DNA of 7,685 nt from T1SED10-198M sp003554345 [NCBI: Candidatus Sumerlaeota bacterium] (lineage in GTDB: Bacteria > Sumerlaeota > T1SED10-198M), in NCBI GenBank assembly GCA_003554345.1, contig PWGE01000084.1, positions 1 to 7,685 of the forward strand, given 5' to 3'. Below, piece after piece: positions 334-7,685 of this stretch. Position numbers and translations under genes: made by a program. Under the pieces are notes generated by a model. The model was not told where the DNA came from and searched no databases. It saw only the letters and a program-made list of their open reading frames with translations. Position 1 is the stretch's first letter. Every line of letters starts with the position of its first letter.

Positions 334-3300
334 ATGGTAAAACGCTTGATCCGCTTTTGTTTATATAGTCCATTTATTGTAGGTCTGATAGTTTTATTAA
401 CCATTTTGTTTGGATTAATGACAGCACCCTTTGATTGGGATCTGGGCTTTTTTCCTCGTGATCCTGTACCGGTCGATGCCATTCCGGATATTGGGGAGAA
501 TCAACAGATTGTCTTTACTGAATGGATGGGTCGTTCACCGGAAGATATCGAAGATCAAATAACATATCCGCTTACCATTGCCCTTATGGGTATTCCCCAT
601 GTTGAAGAAGTGAGAAGTTTTTCTTACTTTGGGTTTTCACAGATTTATGTGGTTTTTGACGAGGGAGTAGACTTTTACTGGTCTCGTAGCCGAATAATAG
701 AAAAACTCAACAGTCTGCCGGCAGGTGAGCTTCCGGATGGAGTAGAACCGACCCTTGGTCCGGATGCTACAGCGCTGGGACAGATATTCTGGTACACTTT
801 GCAGGGCCGTGATCCTCATGGAAATCCTGTAGGTGGCTGGGACCTGGAAGAACTGAGAACTATCCAGGACTGGTACGTTCGTTATTATCTGTGGGGAGCA
901 AGAGGTATAGCTGAAGTTGCCAGTGTTGGTGGTTTTCAAAAAGAATATCAGGTTGATGTGGACCCCGATGCTATGCGGCAATACGGCGTTGATATAAAAA
1001 AGATTTCCCGGGCTGTTCGCCGCTCAAATCTGGATGTGGGTGCCAGGAATATTGAAATCAATCGGGCGGAATACCTTATCCGAAGCAGTGGTTTTGTCCA
1101 GGACAAAGAGGATATTGAGAATACTGTCGTAACCGTCAGAGAAAATATTCCGGTACGTATTAAAGATGTTGCAAAAGTAACAAGTGGTCCTGCTCAAAGA
1201 CGAGGGGCACTGGATGTTGATGGATCAGAAGCAGTGGGTGGGGTGGTAACGGTGCGAGATGGTTATAATCCTCTGGAGGCTATTCATAATGTTAAAGAAG
1301 TGATTGCCGATATTGAACCTGGTCTCCCTCGTAAACCGTACATTGATTACGATAAGGTTACCTTTGCAGAAACGGCTGATTTCGCTGCACGCCATGGATT
1401 TCAGGGTTATAAAGATGGTGCTGTAAATGAAGAGGGTTGGTTGGAATGGCTGGACAATACAGATCATAACGATTGGCCTGATTGGATTACCATCAGCCAA
1501 CTGGAAATTGTTCCTTTTTATGATCGCACTGAACTTATTTATGAGACATTGGGAACTCTTGGAACTGCCTTGAGCGAAGAAATACTGGTAACAATTATTG
1601 TTATAGTAGTTCTCCTGGGTCATCTGGCGAGTTCACTGCTTGTGAGTAGCGTCCTCCCTCTCTCTGTGCTGGCATGCTTTATCATGATGAAAGTGTTAGG
1701 CGTTGATGCTAATATTGTTTCTCTTTCGGGAATTGCTATTTCAATTGGTGCCATCGTTGATATGTCTATTATTATCTGTGAGAATGTTTTCCGACACCTC
1801 CAGGAAGCTCCACCTGATAAGGATAAGAAAAAGGTTGTTTTAGAAGGTGCTTCAGAGGTGGGAAATGCTGTGCTTACTGCGGTTTCTACCACCGTGATAA
1901 GCTTTATGGCTGTATTTACCATGACAGGGCCGGAAGGCCGGCTGTTTCGACCACTTGCTTTTACCTTTACCAGTATGCTGGTGGCTTCCATTCTTATTGC
2001 TCTTACAGTAATGCCGGTGGCGGGATATCTGGTATTTTCGTTGAAATTGTCCGGCAGAACGCTTAGAACTTTCTTCCTTTTATTGCTGGGAGGAGTTGGT
2101 TTCTCCCTGATTGTGATATGGCAATGGTTTATTGCGGGTGCCGTTCTTTTGCTCGCTGTAATCTGCTGGTTTAGCCGGGAATATCTCTCGGAAAAAGGGA
2201 AAAAGATTCTTTCTCGAGGCTTTCTTGTACTGCTGTCATTCTTTTTATTGTTTGTCCTCGCAGGATACTGGGAACCTCTGGGAGCAGAAGCGGGTAGAAC
2301 CGGAAACCTTCTTTTCTTGGTTGTGGTGTTTGGTGGTCTTCTGGTTACCCTGGAGATGATAAAACGTTATTATCCCATTATATTGAGATGGTGTTTGCTT
2401 CATACAAAAACTTTTCTCGCCATTCCATTGTTTATTGTGATAGCTGGTATTGTCATATGGCTTGGCTTCAGTCGGGTATTTTTCTTTATTCCGGCGACGC
2501 TTGAAAAAATTGGTTTGGACAGGACTGAAATGGAACATACCACTCTGTGGATGGAAGGAGACAATCTTTTCCCGGGTATGGGTCGGGAATTTATGCCTGC
2601 GCTGGATGAAGGATCTTTTCTATGGATGCCTACCATAGGAACTCATGCCTCTATCGGGGAGGCTCTGGAGGTATTAGCAGAGCAGGATGAGGCTTTTGCT
2701 CGCATTCCTGAAGTCAAAACAGTAGCGGGGAAAATAGGAAGAGCAGATTCACCTCTGGATCCTGCCCCTATTTCTATGATTGAAACGGTAATTCACTATA
2801 AATCAGAATATAAAACGGATGAAGATGGAAGAAGATTACATTTTAAATATGACCGGCAAGAAGAAGAATTTATCAGAGACCAGAATGGAGATTTAATACC
2901 TGATGCAGGCGGAATGCCCTTTCGCCAGTGGAGAGACCACATCAAGTCTCCTGATGATATCTGGGAAGATATAGTGGAAGCTGGAGATATGATGGGGAGT
3001 ACGTCGGCGCCACGGCTTCAACCCATAGAAACCCGTCTGGTAATGCTTCAGACAGGAATGCGGGCGCCGATGGGAGTAAAGGTTTTTGGTCCCGATTTGG
3101 AGTCTTTAGAACAAGTGGCTCTTGATATTGAGAGTTTACTGCAGGAGGTGCCTTCAATTCAACCTGCTACCGTCCGTGCCGATAGAGTGGTAGGTAAACC
3201 ATATTTTGTTATTGAACCGAAACGGGAAGCCCTTGCCAGACATGGTATGAGTATGCAGGATGTTCAGGAAGTTATAGAAGTAGCTATTGGCGGTAAACAT

Positions 3301-4395
3301 CTGACGCGTACTGTGGAGGGCCGTGAAAGATTTGGAATACGTGTCCGATATAAACGGGAATTACGTGATGACCTGGAAAAACTGGGTAGAATACTGCTGC
3401 CGGCAATGAATGGAGAGTACCAGGTGCCTCTTGAAGAGGTGGCTGATATTGACTATGAAAGGGGGCCCATGGTTATCAAAAGTGAGGACACCTATCCAGT
3501 GGCCTATGTCACCTTTGGAATGCAAACAGGCCATTCAGAAGTAGATGTGGTGGAAGAAGCAGAGGCACATCTTCAAAGGGCGGTCAATGATGGAACCCTT
3601 TCTCTCCCGGAAGGAGTAACGTTTCGCTTTGCAGGGGAGTATGAACAACAAGTACGAGCCCAGCAGACTCTCTCAGTCATTCTTCCCCTTTCGTTGTTGA
3701 TCATCCTTACGATTCTGTATTTTCAATTTAAATCTGCAAAGGTTTCTTTCCTGGTCTTTCTATCCATTTTGCTGGCGTGGAGCGGGGGTTTTATACTGCT
3801 GTGGCTCTACGGAGAACCCTGGTTTATGAATTTTTCGTTTTATGGAGTTAATCTCCGTGATCTTTTCAATATGGAAACATATAATCTCAGTGTGGCAGTA
3901 TGGGTGGGATTTCTTGCTTTATTTGGTATAGCAGTAGATGACAGTGTGGTAATGGGGACCCATTTGGAACAGGTTTTTTCCCGGTCTTGTCCCTCTGACA
4001 GGGAATCCATCCATAAAGCTGTGATAGAGGCGGGAAGCAAAAGAATAAGACCCTGCTTGATGACAAGTGCTACTACCATTCTTGCCCTTCTTCCTGTTTT
4101 GACCTCTACCGGCAGGGGGGCTGATGTTATGATTCCTATGGCTATACCGGCGGTAGGTGGTATGACTTTTGTAGTCCTTTCTAATTTCATGGTTCCGGTA
4201 TTGTATGCTGTCTTGAAAAAAGAAGAAATCTCAGGTAAACAACAAAAGTCCTGGAAAAAAAGGATTGTAATTTTTCTTATTGTATCAGCTATTGGAGCAG
4301 TGATATTTTTACATCGTTCAGAAGCTGAAAGAATACGTGAGAACGATACCCAGCAAGAAGAAATGCCGGAGGAAGATCCGCACCGTTTTCATTAA
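334..4395 (+). CDS. cusA: CusA-type heavy-metal efflux RND permease, enlarged (1353 aa)
   Basis: Inner-membrane, proton-driven pump of the HME-RND family, probably exporting Cu(I)/Ag(I). The start is supported by the family-like N-terminus, with TM1 at about residues 12-30 followed by a PVDAIPDI segment. Family landmarks include WSRSRIIEKLN, ELPDGVEPTLGPDA, EVASVGGFQKEYQV, YDRTELI (396-402) and TM4 GIAISIGAIVD with Asp476. The CusA methionine triad and acidic residue appear conserved: Met765 (FLWMP), Met815 and Glu817 (ISMIET), Met904 (RLVML). It is about 300 residues longer than E. coli CusA (1047). The extra length comes from an insertion at about 344-393, four extra hydrophobic segments at about 580-674, a charged insertion at about 822-880, a spacer at about 1160-1186 between TM9 and TM10, and a C-terminal extension with a further hydrophobic helix (1310-1326) and a charged tail. 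TM10 carries Asp1202-Asp1203; the TM11 position of the CusA Lys is Cys1241. It lies directly downstream of cusB. Family certain; substrate inferred. Confidence 0.96.
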   Translation: MVKRLIRFCLYSPFIVGLIVLLTILFGLMTAPFDWDLGFFPRDPVPVDAIPDIGENQQIVFTEWMGRSPEDIEDQITYPLTIALMGIPHVEEVRSFSYFGFSQIYVVFDEGVDFYWSRSRIIEKLNSLPAGELPDGVEPTLGPDATALGQIFWYTLQGRDPHGNPVGGWDLEELRTIQDWYVRYYLWGARGIAEVASVGGFQKEYQVDVDPDAMRQYGVDIKKISRAVRRSNLDVGARNIEINRAEYLIRSSGFVQDKEDIENTVVTVRENIPVRIKDVAKVTSGPAQRRGALDVDGSEAVGGVVTVRDGYNPLEAIHNVKEVIADIEPGLPRKPYIDYDKVTFAETADFAARHGFQGYKDGAVNEEGWLEWLDNTDHNDWPDWITISQLEIVPFYDRTELIYETLGTLGTALSEEILVTIIVIVVLLGHLASSLLVSSVLPLSVLACFIMMKVLGVDANIVSLSGIAISIGAIVDMSIIICENVFRHLQEAPPDKDKKKVVLEGASEVGNAVLTAVSTTVISFMAVFTMTGPEGRLFRPLAFTFTSMLVASILIALTVMPVAGYLVFSLKLSGRTLRTFFLLLLGGVGFSLIVIWQWFIAGAVLLLAVICWFSREYLSEKGKKILSRGFLVLLSFFLLFVLAGYWEPLGAEAGRTGNLLFLVVVFGGLLVTLEMIKRYYPIILRWCLLHTKTFLAIPLFIVIAGIVIWLGFSRVFFFIPATLEKIGLDRTEMEHTTLWMEGDNLFPGMGREFMPALDEGSFLWMPTIGTHASIGEALEVLAEQDEAFARIPEVKTVAGKIGRADSPLDPAPISMIETVIHYKSEYKTDEDGRRLHFKYDRQEEEFIRDQNGDLIPDAGGMPFRQWRDHIKSPDDIWEDIVEAGDMMGSTSAPRLQPIETRLVMLQTGMRAPMGVKVFGPDLESLEQVALDIESLLQEVPSIQPATVRADRVVGKPYFVIEPKREALARHGMSMQDVQEVIEVAIGGKHLTRTVEGRERFGIRVRYKRELRDDLEKLGRILLPAMNGEYQVPLEEVADIDYERGPMVIKSEDTYPVAYVTFGMQTGHSEVDVVEEAEAHLQRAVNDGTLSLPEGVTFRFAGEYEQQVRAQQTLSVILPLSLLIILTILYFQFKSAKVSFLVFLSILLAWSGGFILLWLYGEPWFMNFSFYGVNLRDLFNMETYNLSVAVWVGFLALFGIAVDDSVVMGTHLEQVFSRSCPSDRESIHKAVIEAGSKRIRPCLMTSATTILALLPVLTSTGRGADVMIPMAIPAVGGMTFVVLSNFMVPVLYAVLKKEEISGKQQKSWKKRIVIFLIVSAIGAVIFLHRSEAERIRENDTQQEEMPEEDPHRFH

Positions 4396-4400
4396 GAACT
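4316..4400 (+). repeat. direct repeat copy A: intact 3' end of cusA
   Basis: The last codons of cusA, its TAA stop and a few bases beyond form the intact copy of an 85-bp direct repeat. It aligns without gaps to 5822-5906 at a constant offset of 1506 bp, with 11 mismatches counted by eye (about 87% identity). The repeat encodes the charged C-terminal tail, outside the transport core. Confidence 0.9.
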
Positions 4401-4453
4401 GGAAGGATAAATTGATCAGAAGATAAAGGAAAAATAGAGAAAAAATTTTATAC

Positions 4454-4460
4454 AGGAGGT
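4454..4460 (+). promoter_or_regulatory. strong Shine-Dalgarno of the GLUG gene
   Basis: AGGAGGT lies 7 bases before the ATG at 4468, a near-perfect anti-SSU match at ideal spacing. It fixes the start of the GLUG protein and is much stronger than the site in front of cusA. No clear promoter was found in the 72-bp gap after cusA, so co-transcription with cusA is possible. Confidence 0.85.
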
Positions 4461-4467
4461 ATAAATT

Positions 4468-5640
4468 ATGATTACTTCAGGAACCTTAAGGAAACATTTT
4501 GAGAGGGTTTTTTATATCGCCCTTTTTATAGGGGCTGGTGTAATGGTTATTGGCGGGAGCTATGCGGGAGGGTTGGGAACTACTCAGAATCCCTACCAGG
4601 TGGCTACTGCCGATCAGCTGAACAACATACGAAATGATCTGGATGCTCATTTTGTACAAACTGCTGACATTGATCTTGCTGCATATAGTGCAGGAGAAGG
4701 ATGGGAGCCGATAGGAGAGTGGCCTGATGGATTCACGGGCTCTTTTGAGGGGAATGATAATATTATAACCGGCCTGTTTATCGATCGCCCTCAATCAGAT
4801 TTTGAGGTGGGACTTTTTGGATATATACAAGAACCAGAAGAAGAAGAACCAGCAGAACTTACAGGCATTGTACTGGAAAACGTTGATGTTACCGGTAGAA
4901 ATGGTGTTGGTGCACTGGTTGGATCAAATGATGGTGGTGAACTTATTAATTGCCGGGCTACTGGCGACGTCTCGGGAGAAATGCTGGTCGGACTCCTTGT
5001 TGGTTCAAATAACGGATCTATTACCGGAAGTTCTGCGGAGGGAACGGCATCAGGTGATGACTATGTTGGCGGTTTGAGCGGTACTAATGAAGGTCCCATA
5101 ATTGACAGTTATGCTGATGCAGTAGTCCAGGGAAATAATGAAATGACTGGAGGACTAGTCGGTTGGAGCATTGGTCCAATTACAGGGAGCTATGCCCTTG
5201 GCTCCGTATCCGGTGATCTTCATGTGGGCGGACTGACAGGAGCAAACAGCGATAAGATTGAAGAAAGTTATTCACTGGCGGCTGTTTCTGGAGGAGACAA
5301 TGCCGGGGGATTAAGTGGCGTAAACGCTCAAGCAGCAGAAATAATATATAGTTTCGCTGCCGGAGCGGTTTCGGGTCAAAATGATACTGGAGGCCTTGTG
5401 GGATATAATGATGATGGCACGATTGCTGATTCATACTACGATGAAGATGAGAGCGGACAGAGTGATGTAGGTAAGGGAATTCCTCTCTCTACTTCACAAA
5501 TGAAGCAACAGACCTCCTTTACCGGATGGAATTTTCAAGACATATGGGATATGTCGGATCCAGCTACCGCTTTCGAAGGTTATCCTGTTTTACAGTGGCA
5601 GGAAGTACCCACTGAGATTCGAGACTGGTTTGTTTATTAA
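4468..5640 (+). CDS. secreted GLUG-repeat protein
   Basis: A 390-residue exported protein of unknown function. It starts with a signal peptide: basic residues at 8-13, a hydrophobic core at 14-30 and a likely cleavage after SYA (residue 33). Residues about 36-120 resemble the region that commonly precedes GLUG repeats (NPYQVATADQLNNIR, FVQTADIDL, FTGSFEGN, GLFGYI). After an acidic run (EPEEEEPAE, 122-130), about seven GLUG units (PF07581 type) of 24-28 residues occupy about 147-325, each like xVGGLVGxNxGxIxxSYAxGxVSG. They probably stack as a beta-solenoid. A typical closing segment follows (STSQMKQQ, TGWNFQDIW, then YPVLQWQ). No sortase motif and no clear type IX sorting domain is visible. 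GLUG proteins are usually surface or extracellular, sometimes linked to adhesion. The gene follows cusA by 72 bp but is bracketed by two copies of the cusA 3' end, so it may be a passenger and not a pump component. Confidence 0.9.
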   Translation: MITSGTLRKHFERVFYIALFIGAGVMVIGGSYAGGLGTTQNPYQVATADQLNNIRNDLDAHFVQTADIDLAAYSAGEGWEPIGEWPDGFTGSFEGNDNIITGLFIDRPQSDFEVGLFGYIQEPEEEEPAELTGIVLENVDVTGRNGVGALVGSNDGGELINCRATGDVSGEMLVGLLVGSNNGSITGSSAEGTASGDDYVGGLSGTNEGPIIDSYADAVVQGNNEMTGGLVGWSIGPITGSYALGSVSGDLHVGGLTGANSDKIEESYSLAAVSGGDNAGGLSGVNAQAAEIIYSFAAGAVSGQNDTGGLVGYNDDGTIADSYYDEDESGQSDVGKGIPLSTSQMKQQTSFTGWNFQDIWDMSDPATAFEGYPVLQWQEVPTEIRDWFVY

Positions 5641-5686
5641 AAAACCCCGTATATTAAACATGATGACAGGTTTTGTATTCCGCTGA

Positions 5687-5715
5687 TATAGGCGGGAAAT
5701 AAGCCTGTAGTTTTT
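5687..5715 (+). terminator. candidate rho-independent terminator after the GLUG gene
   Basis: TATAGGC (5687-5693) pairs with GCCTGTA (5703-5709), seven pairs including one G-T wobble, with a 9-base loop. One base later comes TTTTT (5711-5715). It lies 47 bp after the GLUG stop, where a terminator is expected. The stem is short and of modest stability. Confidence 0.45.
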
Positions 5716-5802
5716 AAGTCGTTTCGCAGAAATGGTGCCATTTGGTGCAATGCCTGTATACTATCAGGGTATGATTTGAAATAAATCTTTGCACCGGTGT
5801 AA
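5716..5802. other. non-coding stretch with potential secondary structure
   Basis: No gene is seen. GGTGCAA (5744-5750) can pair with TTGCACC (5789-5795), and CACCGGTG at 5792-5799 is a palindrome. Short stretches here faintly recall the cusA region encoding TM12 (for example a Pro-Val-x-Tyr coding match near 5753-5764), which would fit an older, larger duplicate, but the frame and spacing do not hold and this cannot be shown by eye. Confidence 0.25.
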
Positions 5803-5901
5803 GGAGAAATAGTTTTAAGGTGTTCAGAAAGTGAAAGAATACGTGAGAACTATACCCAGCAAGAAGTAACGCCGGAGGAAGATCCGCATCTCCATCATTA
5901 A
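5803..5901 (+). pseudogene. orphan duplicate of the cusA 3' end (remnant)
   Basis: Read in the frame of 5821, this encodes a second version of the CusA C-terminal tail ending at TAA (5899-5901), exactly aligned with the cusA stop. Over the final 26 codons, 19 residues match the intact tail, with blocks such as ERIREN, TQQE and PEEDPH shared. An in-frame stop at 5800-5802 closes the frame upstream and there is no start codon or ribosome site, so it is not translated as such. Most of the changed codons are non-synonymous, as expected for unconstrained decay. It is best read as the remains of a duplicated or rearranged cusA. The 85-bp core (5822-5906) is copy B of the direct repeat. Confidence 0.85.
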
Positions 5902-5906
5902 AAACT
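5822..5906 (+). repeat. direct repeat copy B of the cusA 3' end
   Basis: Gap-free partner of 4316-4400, with 11 mismatches in 85 positions; similarity continues a few bases past the stop codon and then fades. Together the two copies bracket the GLUG gene. Confidence 0.88.
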
Positions 5907-6327
5907 CAGAGAAAGTCATTAGGGAAAAGCGGTTTGGACTGCATAAAGACTTTAAAGGAGGGTAATAGTCAGCAGTTTTACAAAAAGAACCAGGAATGTG
6001 GAAAATGAGTTAAGAAAAAGATACAATTTTCTATTGCTTTAAAAATTTTTCAGAAACCAGTCTTAAAAGTAATGGTATACATCTTGATATAAATGAATCA
6101 GGGTGAAAATAACGTAAAATAGGAATGAGCAATATTAACTACCCCGGATAAAATGAGGTGCACATAAACTTTTGGTAGAGGAAAGTGAGGGAAGGTGAGA
6201 GGGCTCCGATAAAGAAAGATTGTTATTGAAATATAATTAGAGGCTCGATAATACTATTGACCATGGAAACTAGCTGGTTTACCTTCCTTATAATATAATA
6301 TTGGTGGGAAGTCTTCTGGAGAAAAAC
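5907..6327. other. about 420 bp without a recognisable gene
   Basis: Both strands are broken by frequent stops. Notable points are an AAAGGAGGG at 5954-5962 that resembles a strong ribosome site but has no ATG, GTG or TTG at a suitable distance; an AT-rich palindrome AAAAATTTTT at 6041-6050; and an imperfect repeat (AGAGGGCTCCGATAA at 6198-6212, AGAGGCTCGATAA at 6239-6251). From 5962 one frame runs open for 27 codons before a stop but matches nothing I recognise. No tRNA or known RNA fold was seen. The stretch may be decayed coding DNA. Confidence 0.4.
6289..6299 (+). promoter_or_regulatory. possible -10 doublet upstream of the permease
   Basis: TATAATATAAT contains two overlapping perfect -10 hexamers (6289-6294 and 6294-6299) about 30 bp before the leader ORF. 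No good -35 lies 16-19 bp upstream; the nearest strong match, TTGACC at 6257-6262, is 26 bp from the first hexamer, too far for a standard promoter. CTTCC and GGAAG flank the element as a short inverted repeat. Confidence 0.35.
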
Positions 6328-6387
6328 ATGTTTGAAAAAATATTACTGTATTACCGAAAAATATTATTATTTGAGGATACTACATGA
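6328..6387 (+). CDS. 19-codon leader ORF translationally coupled to the permease
   Basis: ATG at 6328 opens MFEKILLYYRKILLFEDTT, ending with TGA at 6385-6387, which overlaps the permease start as ATGA (6384-6387). GGAG at 6318-6321, six bases upstream, is a good ribosome site. The peptide is hydrophobic and basic and contains two similar halves, EKILL and RKILL, from a DNA near-repeat at 6334-6345 and 6356-6366. The permease's own ribosome site (GAGGA, 6373-6377) lies inside this ORF, so translation of the leader would pass over it. This is the classical layout of a coupled leader peptide. No protein family is recognised, and expression is unproven. Confidence 0.5.
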   Translation: MFEKILLYYRKILLFEDTT

Positions 6388-7262
6388 CATTTCTTCAGGC
6401 TGTTCAAATGTATCTTTGGGATGTTCTGCCTGCCCTGTTACTGGGGTTTTTCCTGAGTGGGCTGATCCATGAGTTTTTCCCTGCAAACTGGATAGATAAA
6501 TACCTGGGGCGGGCGGATATACGATCTGTTTTGTATGCTACCCTCGTAGGTACCATCCTGCCGATTTGTTGCTGGGGCTCTTTACCTATGGCCATAGCCT
6601 TTTATAAGAAGGGTTCTCACCTGGGACCTGTCCTGGCTTTTTTGGTGGCAACACCTGCCACCTCAGTCACGGCCCTTTTGGTCAGTTATCGGTTGTTGGG
6701 ATTAAATTTTGCCCTGTATGAATTTTTTGCCGTGATTGTGATAGGTATTCTGGTAGGAATCGTGGGAAATAGGTTTACTCAGAAGCAGGAGCATACGGAA
6801 GATACTGCATGCTCTGATTGTTGTGATGAGACTGAAAAAGATGTTCCCAGTGCTTTACAAAGAATAAAATCAGTTTTCCGGTTTGCTTTCCTGGACCTGC
6901 CTAAAGATATCGGCCTGGAAACACTGGTAGGGATTATCCTTGCTGCCGTAGTCATTTCTTTTGCGCCCCTTGGTGATTGGATAAACCGTTATATGACAGG
7001 TGGGGGAGGATACCTGTTCAGCGCCGTTTTTGGTTTGACCATGTATATCTGTGCCACCGGGACGGTACCGCTTGTCAGTGCCTTTCTGAACCAGGGACTC
7101 AATATTGGCGCTGGTATGACCCTTTTGCTTATTGGTCCTGTAACCAGTTATGCCACTGTTTTGGTGGTTCGCAAAAAGTTCGGTATGCCGGTATTGCTGA
7201 CATATCTCAGCGTGGCTACTGCTTTATCCCTTCTGCTGGGATACCTTTTTATGATTCTTTAA
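6384..7262 (+). CDS. ArsP/DUF318-type permease, putative metal or metalloid exporter
   Basis: A 292-residue inner-membrane protein of the PF03773 (DUF318, ArsP_1) permease family, whose members include organoarsenical exporter ArsP and the SO_0444 Cu/Zn exporter group. It has two related halves. The first contains ILPICCWGSLPMA (Cys62, Cys63) followed by FLVATPATS; the second contains YICATGTVPLV (Cys223) and LLLIGPVTS, the pseudo-repeat expected for the family. About eight to nine hydrophobic segments are visible. A hydrophilic loop between the halves (about 130-165) carries CSDCCD (Cys143, Cys146, Cys147), a CxxCC cluster that could bind a soft metal. The start at 6384 has GAGGA six bases upstream and overlaps the stop of a short leader ORF. 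Proximity to cusBA supports a metal-resistance role, but the substrate (As, Cu or Zn) cannot be told from the sequence. Confidence 0.85.
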   Translation: MTFLQAVQMYLWDVLPALLLGFFLSGLIHEFFPANWIDKYLGRADIRSVLYATLVGTILPICCWGSLPMAIAFYKKGSHLGPVLAFLVATPATSVTALLVSYRLLGLNFALYEFFAVIVIGILVGIVGNRFTQKQEHTEDTACSDCCDETEKDVPSALQRIKSVFRFAFLDLPKDIGLETLVGIILAAVVISFAPLGDWINRYMTGGGGYLFSAVFGLTMYICATGTVPLVSAFLNQGLNIGAGMTLLLIGPVTSYATVLVVRKKFGMPVLLTYLSVATALSLLLGYLFMIL

Positions 7263-7454: not shown

Positions 7455-7573
7455 TTTATATTTCAACACTCCTCTGAAAATAGAAATACCTTAAGAATTA
7501 AGAAAAAGAAGAACAACTAAGAAAACAGAAAAATATTGCTTACAAGTTCTATACTCCCGGGTTACAATTTAGC

Positions 7574-7600
7574 AGGGCAGACACACAGGTCTGCCCCTAC
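7574..7600. repeat. REP-like palindromic repeat, unit 1
   Basis: A 27-bp unit in which GGGCAGAC (7575-7582) pairs perfectly with GTCTGCCC (7589-7596) around the loop ACACAG, followed by CTAC. It resembles short interspersed palindromes (a GGGC stem arm, a GCCCCTAC end) that occur in many copies in some bacterial genomes and are sometimes linked to REP-associated transposases. None is encoded here. Confidence 0.75.
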
Positions 7601-7627
7601 GGCTGAAATGATCGGGGAGATTAATAC

Positions 7628-7654
7628 AGGGCAAACACATAGGTTTGCCCCTAC
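7628..7654. repeat. REP-like palindromic repeat, unit 2
   Basis: The same 27-bp unit in the same orientation, starting 54 bp after unit 1. GGGCAAAC (7629-7636) pairs with GTTTGCCC (7643-7650) around ACATAG. Of three differences from unit 1, two are at the two sides of one stem pair (G-C to A-T), so pairing is preserved; the third is in the loop. Confidence 0.75.
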
Positions 7655-7685
7655 CACTGATAATAAACTTTTCAAAGTATAATGC

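Follow-up and report, generated by a model that had tools for sequence, protein, structure and literature searches.

Introduction

Pumps of the RND family have 12 helices, and both of their termini are cytoplasmic. At the 3' end of a gene for one such pump, described here, a stretch of coding sequence recurs downstream, and two kinds of known system offer the closest comparisons. The truncated remnants of duplicated genes found in prokaryotes are partial copies near an intact gene that have no start codon or gene body and drift in a near-neutral manner. Integrative elements can enter the 3' ends of genes and leave behind a displaced gene end. The downstream copy at this locus (copy 2, positions 5809 to 5906) resembles the former in all of these respects, but it is very short, has kept the 3' end and the stop codon of the gene and is separated from the other copy by an unrelated gene, and the intermediate stages are unseen. 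As with the integrative elements, the gene end is repeated on either side of an inserted-looking gene; unlike them, the locus has no recombinase gene in the 1.5 kb between the copies, and no empty site is known. We consider it probable, at roughly 78%, that copy 2 is a dead, non-coding and lineage-specific remnant of a duplicated cusA 3' end.

Results

The window, the whole 7,685-nucleotide stretch that was analysed, is an entire contig (C24) from a metagenome bin that comprises 454 contigs, totals 2.55 Mb and is 87.66% complete. All features lie on the + strand. The window opens with the 3' end of a reading frame (3 to 233), and a similar frame precedes cusA in two relatives, L031 and contig C229 of genome G044. 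The cusA gene itself (334 to 4395; SEAERIRENDTQQEEMPEEDPHRFH) encodes an RND pump of the CusA/CzcA family that has a tail and one additional helix at its C terminus; its product scored 726.9 bits against TIGR00914 (cut-off, 701.45), also matched PF00873 and had an additional hydrophobic segment at residue 1311. A gene for a GLUG-repeat protein (4468 to 5640; PF07581, 59.6 bits) follows and is separated from copy 2 by a terminator-like hairpin with a T run (5662 to 5715), detected by RNA folding. Beyond copy 2 lies intergenic DNA (5907 to 6383) with no coding likeness and no further genomic copy, and then a permease gene of the ArsP_1 family (6384 to 7262; PF03773, 152 bits). This permease scored 207.6 bits with the SO_0444 Cu/Zn efflux model and 168.4 bits with the SaoE model, below the respective cut-offs of 300 and 325.

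GLUG-repeat proteins were found to be strongly expanded in this genome, with 51 matches to the protein of the window distributed over the window and 25 other contigs. One further GLUG gene (L169, contig C196) is bracketed by a private direct repeat of terminator-like hairpin sequence (1831 to 1892 and 3984 to 4045; 62 nt, 94% identity). Contig C118, in which several GLUG stretches occur, begins with exactly the same sequence as the last 121 nt of the window (7565 to 7685). It may be the continuation of the window, or both contigs may end in a common repeat. A short motif occurs twice in this final stretch of the window (7573 to 7606 and 7627 to 7660) and has relatives in L168 and L172.

A single repeat family with two members was detected in the window, at 4296 to 4400 and 5802 to 5906 (105 nt, 82% identity, ungapped, spacing of 1506). 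BLAST against the genome itself delimited a core of 98 nt with 84% identity (4303 to 4400 against 5809 to 5906; E value of 1.1e-23), and repeat search, BLAST and local alignment were the basis for defining the two copies. Copy 1 (4303 to 4400) consists of the last 93 nt of cusA, including the stop codon, and 5 nt beyond it; copy 2 is an orphan cusA tail with an aligned stop codon and no gene body, and the weaker likeness begins at 5802. Mismatches numbered 19 of 105 over the full repeat, 16 of 98 over the core, 15 of 93 up to the stop codon (4303 to 4395) and 11 of 85 over 4316 to 4400. The last of these counts reproduces the initial annotation, in which the last ~85 bp of cusA were said to recur 1506 bp downstream without gaps, with 11 mismatches and with an aligned stop codon; the coordinates given there also proved correct. 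The best local alignment of 4096 to 4470 with 5641 to 6384 was ungapped and had a score of 116, far beyond chance, as 500 single-base shuffles gave a mean of 22.7 and a maximum of 34. Since the match spans the stop codon and continues for 5 nt past it, duplication at the level of DNA, as originally proposed, is supported. Copy 2 therefore has significant DNA likeness (98 nt, 84%, E value of 1.1e-23) to an intact gene in the same genome, one of the features by which the remnant of a duplicated gene is recognised.

The two edges of the match differed. In successive 20-nt steps, identity was 18, 19, 18 and 14 across the tail and then fell to 6 and 3, giving a sharp 3' edge, while the 5' edge was softer, with the likeness fading between about 4316 and about 4280. 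Upstream of copy 2, no trace of a cusA gene body was detected by repeat search, local alignment or sequence comparison, which bears out the claim that the second copy lacks one. Six-frame comparison of 5641 to 6384, with stops read as X, against L011 to L109 detected no coding likeness at E values up to 1, and 5641 to 6383 had no other relative in its own genome at E values up to 0.1.

The longest exact run common to the two copies was 19 nt, and this figure bears on whether the repeat arose during assembly by the joining of cusA ends from two strains into one metagenome contig. Such a join is suggested by the fact that the window is an entire contig of a bin in 454 pieces and by the 121 bases at its 3' end that are identical to part of C118. 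However, identity of 84% with an exact run of 19 nt would be too little for the usual mis-joins, which occur at common words, and both copies are internal to the contig, so that an artefact appears highly improbable.

Within a genome that is 87.66% complete, a third copy was not detected. A dispersed repeat, with the tail occurring at many unrelated sites, was rejected, since only two copies were present in the genome searched. A phylum-level search of 40 genomes, including that of the window, gave a match in the latter only. When the 50-residue tail was used as the query against G041 to G044, to look for tails on other genes or for solitary tails, six weak matches were obtained (E values of 0.135 to 0.512), two of which correspond to the ends of cusA in G041 and G042; this search missed the known tails of G044 and so lacked the power to rule out further ones.

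The coding state of copy 2 was assessed from the differences between the copies. Over 30 codons, there were 2.5 synonymous and 12.5 non-synonymous changes (pS of 0.147 and pN of 0.171), which was compatible with neutrality (P = 0.44). For the same 30 codons, the intact paralogues on contigs C229 and C184 of G044 exhibited 10 synonymous and 3 non-synonymous changes (pS of 0.458 and pN of 0.044), a significantly different distribution (Fisher P = 0.0018, with counts rounded to 2/12 and 10/3), although this comparison involves only 15 changes and runs across lineages, and changes could be assigned to one copy at the last codons only. Relaxed constraint on copy 1, whose CusA protein has a long branch in the tree (0.40), could add to this neutral appearance. 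Copy 2 has no complete reading frame, a further feature of duplicated-gene remnants: downstream of the preceding stop codon, its frame contains no ATG, GTG or TTG, and the gene body is missing. The frame and stop codon of the copy are themselves intact, with no gap in 98 nt, but this is no sign of life because 7,461 of 20,000 neutral simulations with 15 changes also kept both. The near-neutral changes, the lack of a usual start codon and of a body and the presence of only two copies support a release of the second copy from constraint.

The hairpin at 5662 to 5715 was more stable than any of 200 shuffles (z of -4.23 for the fold of 5655 to 5720), and transcription of the GLUG gene probably stops there, ahead of copy 2. 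A plain scan for terminator patterns listed a shorter version of this hairpin among two sites where 1.6 would be expected, which means that pattern matching by itself did not exceed chance. From the sequence evidence as a whole, we infer that copy 2 has no function.

Folding analyses were relevant to a different possibility, namely, that copy 2 has been kept for its function as an RNA hairpin or as a regulatory leader ahead of the permease gene. The fold of copy 2 was more stable than those of dinucleotide shuffles (z of -2.85 over 105 nt; 1 of 200 as stable), most markedly at 5800 to 5860 (z of -3.56; 0 of 200), and copy 1 was not unusually stable (z of -1.25 and -0.81). When the letters at the positions that differ were permuted, equal stability was rarely obtained (68, 20 and 23 of 3,000). 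Random mutants of copy 1 with an equal number of changes were, however, as stable in 426, 729 and 99 of 3,000 cases for the three stretches, and these stretches had been picked after the fact. Moreover, the hairpin of copy 2 is not followed by a T run, no Rfam family scored above threshold within the window and about 480 nt separate copy 2 from the start of the permease gene. An RNA element was set aside, given that random mutants of copy 1 equalled the stability of copy 2 in 3 to 24% of runs; we regard a retained RNA function as very improbable.

The CusA tail was then compared with those of relatives, for which the best 80 of 502 confirmed stretches were used; the class-level search amounted to one genome. 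Among these best 80, the nearest named cusA relatives were from Planctomycetota bins. The tail is rare: in the loci searched, a DPH-motif ending was present in 5 of 92 CusA-like C termini with a stop codon, those of the window, L030, L031 and contigs C229 and C184 of G044, and all five tails carry EEDPH. In all five proteins the tail is preceded by an extra hydrophobic segment, and in the window segment and tail together occupy 4264 to 4395. The four relatives thus share with the window an extra C-terminal helix and an EEDPH tail, but their loci have one tail each as opposed to two. L032 CusA grouped with the window protein in the tree (support of 83/92), yet has no tail. Because a 13th helix would be added to 12 helices with cytoplasmic ends, the acidic, His-containing tail would be placed in the periplasm, where one explanation for it would be as a metal-binding strip. 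In the parts of the literature covered by our searches, there was no report joining CzcA heavy metal efflux with a C-terminal extension, and the terms for CusA and RND with C-terminal, transmembrane helix and histidine-rich occurred together in one paper, on cobalt and vitamin B12.

Three closely related cusA genes were observed on separate contigs of G044 (C229, C184 and C221) and grouped together at 100/98; the C221 gene is incomplete, being cut off before its end. These genes represent a recent multiplication.

The extreme ends of the tails were informative about the two copies. An HxHH ending was found in copy 2 (HLHH) and in three of the four tailed relatives (HRHH in L030, HAHH and HEHH in G044) but not in the cusA gene of the window, which ends in HRFH; L031 ends in HQGH. 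Over the last 24 nt, L030, C229 and C184 had 21, 18 and 17 matches to copy 2 versus 18, 15 and 14 to copy 1, and L031 had 16 versus 17. As copy 2 resembles three of four relatives at a point where cusA does not, an older tail seems to have been the ancestor of both copies, each of which would have changed since. The description of copy 2 as a "decayed copy" in the initial annotation consequently holds for its loss of constraint but less well for its last 24 nt, which are nearer to three of the four relatives than is the end of cusA itself. Both copies also contain the motif SE-x-ERIREN-x-TQQE, which none of the four tailed relatives has, and this places the duplication of the tail after the split from them.

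The end of copy 2, which looks more ancestral than that of cusA, would also be explained if a GLUG-bearing segment of ~1.5 kb had entered the 3' end of cusA with a replacement tail and copy 2 were the displaced original, either in the manner of integrative elements at gene 3' ends or by a single crossover with a circular segment. The copies bracket exactly one gene, which belongs to the family with 51 matches in the genome, and relatives have no GLUG gene at this site. The GLUG gene is, however, the only long + strand ORF between the copies, and there is no recombinase gene in the 1.5 kb. Flanking repeats were counted in 81 of the 454 contigs, including the window: private intergenic ones occurred at 2 of 11 GLUG ORFs, the second being L169 with its 62-nt, 94% repeat, and at 0 of 202 other ORFs. 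Without the index case, the comparison became 1 of 10 versus 0 of 202 (P = 0.047), or 1 of 10 versus 3 of 202 for all flanking repeats (P = 0.18). The three non-GLUG ORFs (L184, L197 and L250) had repeats that were scored as non-private; that of L184 falls within a longer reading frame of opposite orientation and has 3 copies in 2 contigs, and those of L197 and L250 occur 20 to 32 times across 14 to 18 contigs. Furthermore, the L169 repeat is hairpin sequence outside ORFs and not a gene end. In related genomes, 1 of 9 GLUG ORFs versus 0 of 22 others had a flanking repeat, the single case being internal to a longer GLUG frame. A general association of GLUG genes with flanking direct repeats is suggestive only, and we consider an insertion at cusA to be unlikely.

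In L031, L032 and C229 of G044, a gene for a YHS-domain lipoprotein lies 3' of cusA, in the position that is occupied by the GLUG gene in the window. Two of these three lipoproteins scored above the PF04945 cut-off, and that of L032 reached 24.9 bits versus 30.3. At L032:9906 to 10010, a tail-less CusA end is present with the lipoprotein gene about 100 nt 3' of it. No trace of the lipoprotein was detected in the window with the G044 protein as the query, and a search of the genome, performed with no positive control, gave no match. The parts of the literature searched held no report joining a YHS domain with CusA efflux.

The CusA tails of relatives resembled the leader/linker of the adjoining YHS lipoprotein, at the DNA level in L031 and C184. 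Tail/leader pairs were noted in L031 (4804 to 4858 and 5082 to 5127) and also in L162 and L163 (C229 and C184 of G044). The L031 tail had DNA scores of 43 against its own leader and 33 against the C229 leader, and the C184 tail had scores of 33 and 29 against these two leaders, with 0 of 1,000 codon shuffles as good in each case. Scores were lower for the C229 tail (22 against its own neighbour, 26 of 1,000; 21 against the L031 leader, 55 of 1,000), and the L030 tail exhibited no likeness to the leaders (17 and 16; 367 and 496 of 1,000). Both copies in the window and the L032 leader likewise had no likeness at the DNA level. At the protein level, none of 1,000 residue shuffles equalled any of the comparisons of the L030, L031, C229 and C184 tails with the L031 and C229 leaders, a lenient test in that, on both sides, an acidic stretch comes after a hydrophobic one. 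It is likely that a copied start of the lipoprotein gene was fused to the end of cusA or that the two exchanged sequence. A more elaborate proposal, in which the cusA 3' end of this clade is a recurrent copying site where a YHS leader was copied onto CusA, supplying the 13th helix and a periplasmic metal-binding tail, and, in the lineage of the window, a GLUG cassette was inserted with a flanking direct duplication, displacing a cusA tail, seems decidedly unlikely.

Discussion

Our preferred reading remains that copy 2 is a dead remnant. A stretch holding the end of cusA would have been duplicated once this lineage had diverged from its known relatives. One copy would still terminate the working cusA gene, and the other, whose gene body would have been lost or have never existed, would have drifted in a near-neutral manner; it now lies between the probable terminator of the GLUG gene and the permease gene.

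Within this reading, we lean, at about even odds, towards a larger duplication or recombination involving a cusA paralogue, with deletion of the body and the GLUG gene ending up between the copies. According to the initial annotation, either cusA was duplicated in tandem and most of one copy was then lost, or paralogues recombined; such a history is plausible because G044 has three close cusA genes, which show that cusA has duplicated within the clade, but no traces of a body were found and the history is possible only. The C229/C184 pair likewise stops aligning at the stop codon. With near-neutral drift, a larger duplication should have left homology past the stop codon, and none was seen; nor did any relative examined have two cusA genes at the locus. 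A short local duplication of ~100 bp accounts for the data almost as well and fits the edges best, but leaves the intervening GLUG gene unexplained.

The synteny comparison that had been suggested as a check did not separate these histories. No second close cusA was detected in the genome, the best other RND matches being 25 to 31% identical, and no GLUG gene was present beside cusA among the loci examined in relatives. No relative was close enough to reveal an empty site, the intergenic DNA of relatives did not align with the window, and in L058 there was a distant ArsP-like match ~1.6 kb 3' of cusA.

Overall, the repeat is a real but ordinary scar, left by an old rearrangement next to a metal-efflux gene in an uncultured bacterium, and is of little import alone. 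It marks a cusA flank that has been rebuilt in this lineage, with a GLUG gene in the place that a YHS lipoprotein gene occupies in three relatives, and copy 2 preserves a form of the CusA tail that is nearer to that of most relatives. The CusA tail of this clade, together with its resemblance to the neighbouring lipoprotein's leader, merits more attention than the scar, as this tail may exemplify a gene end made from the copied start of a neighbour.
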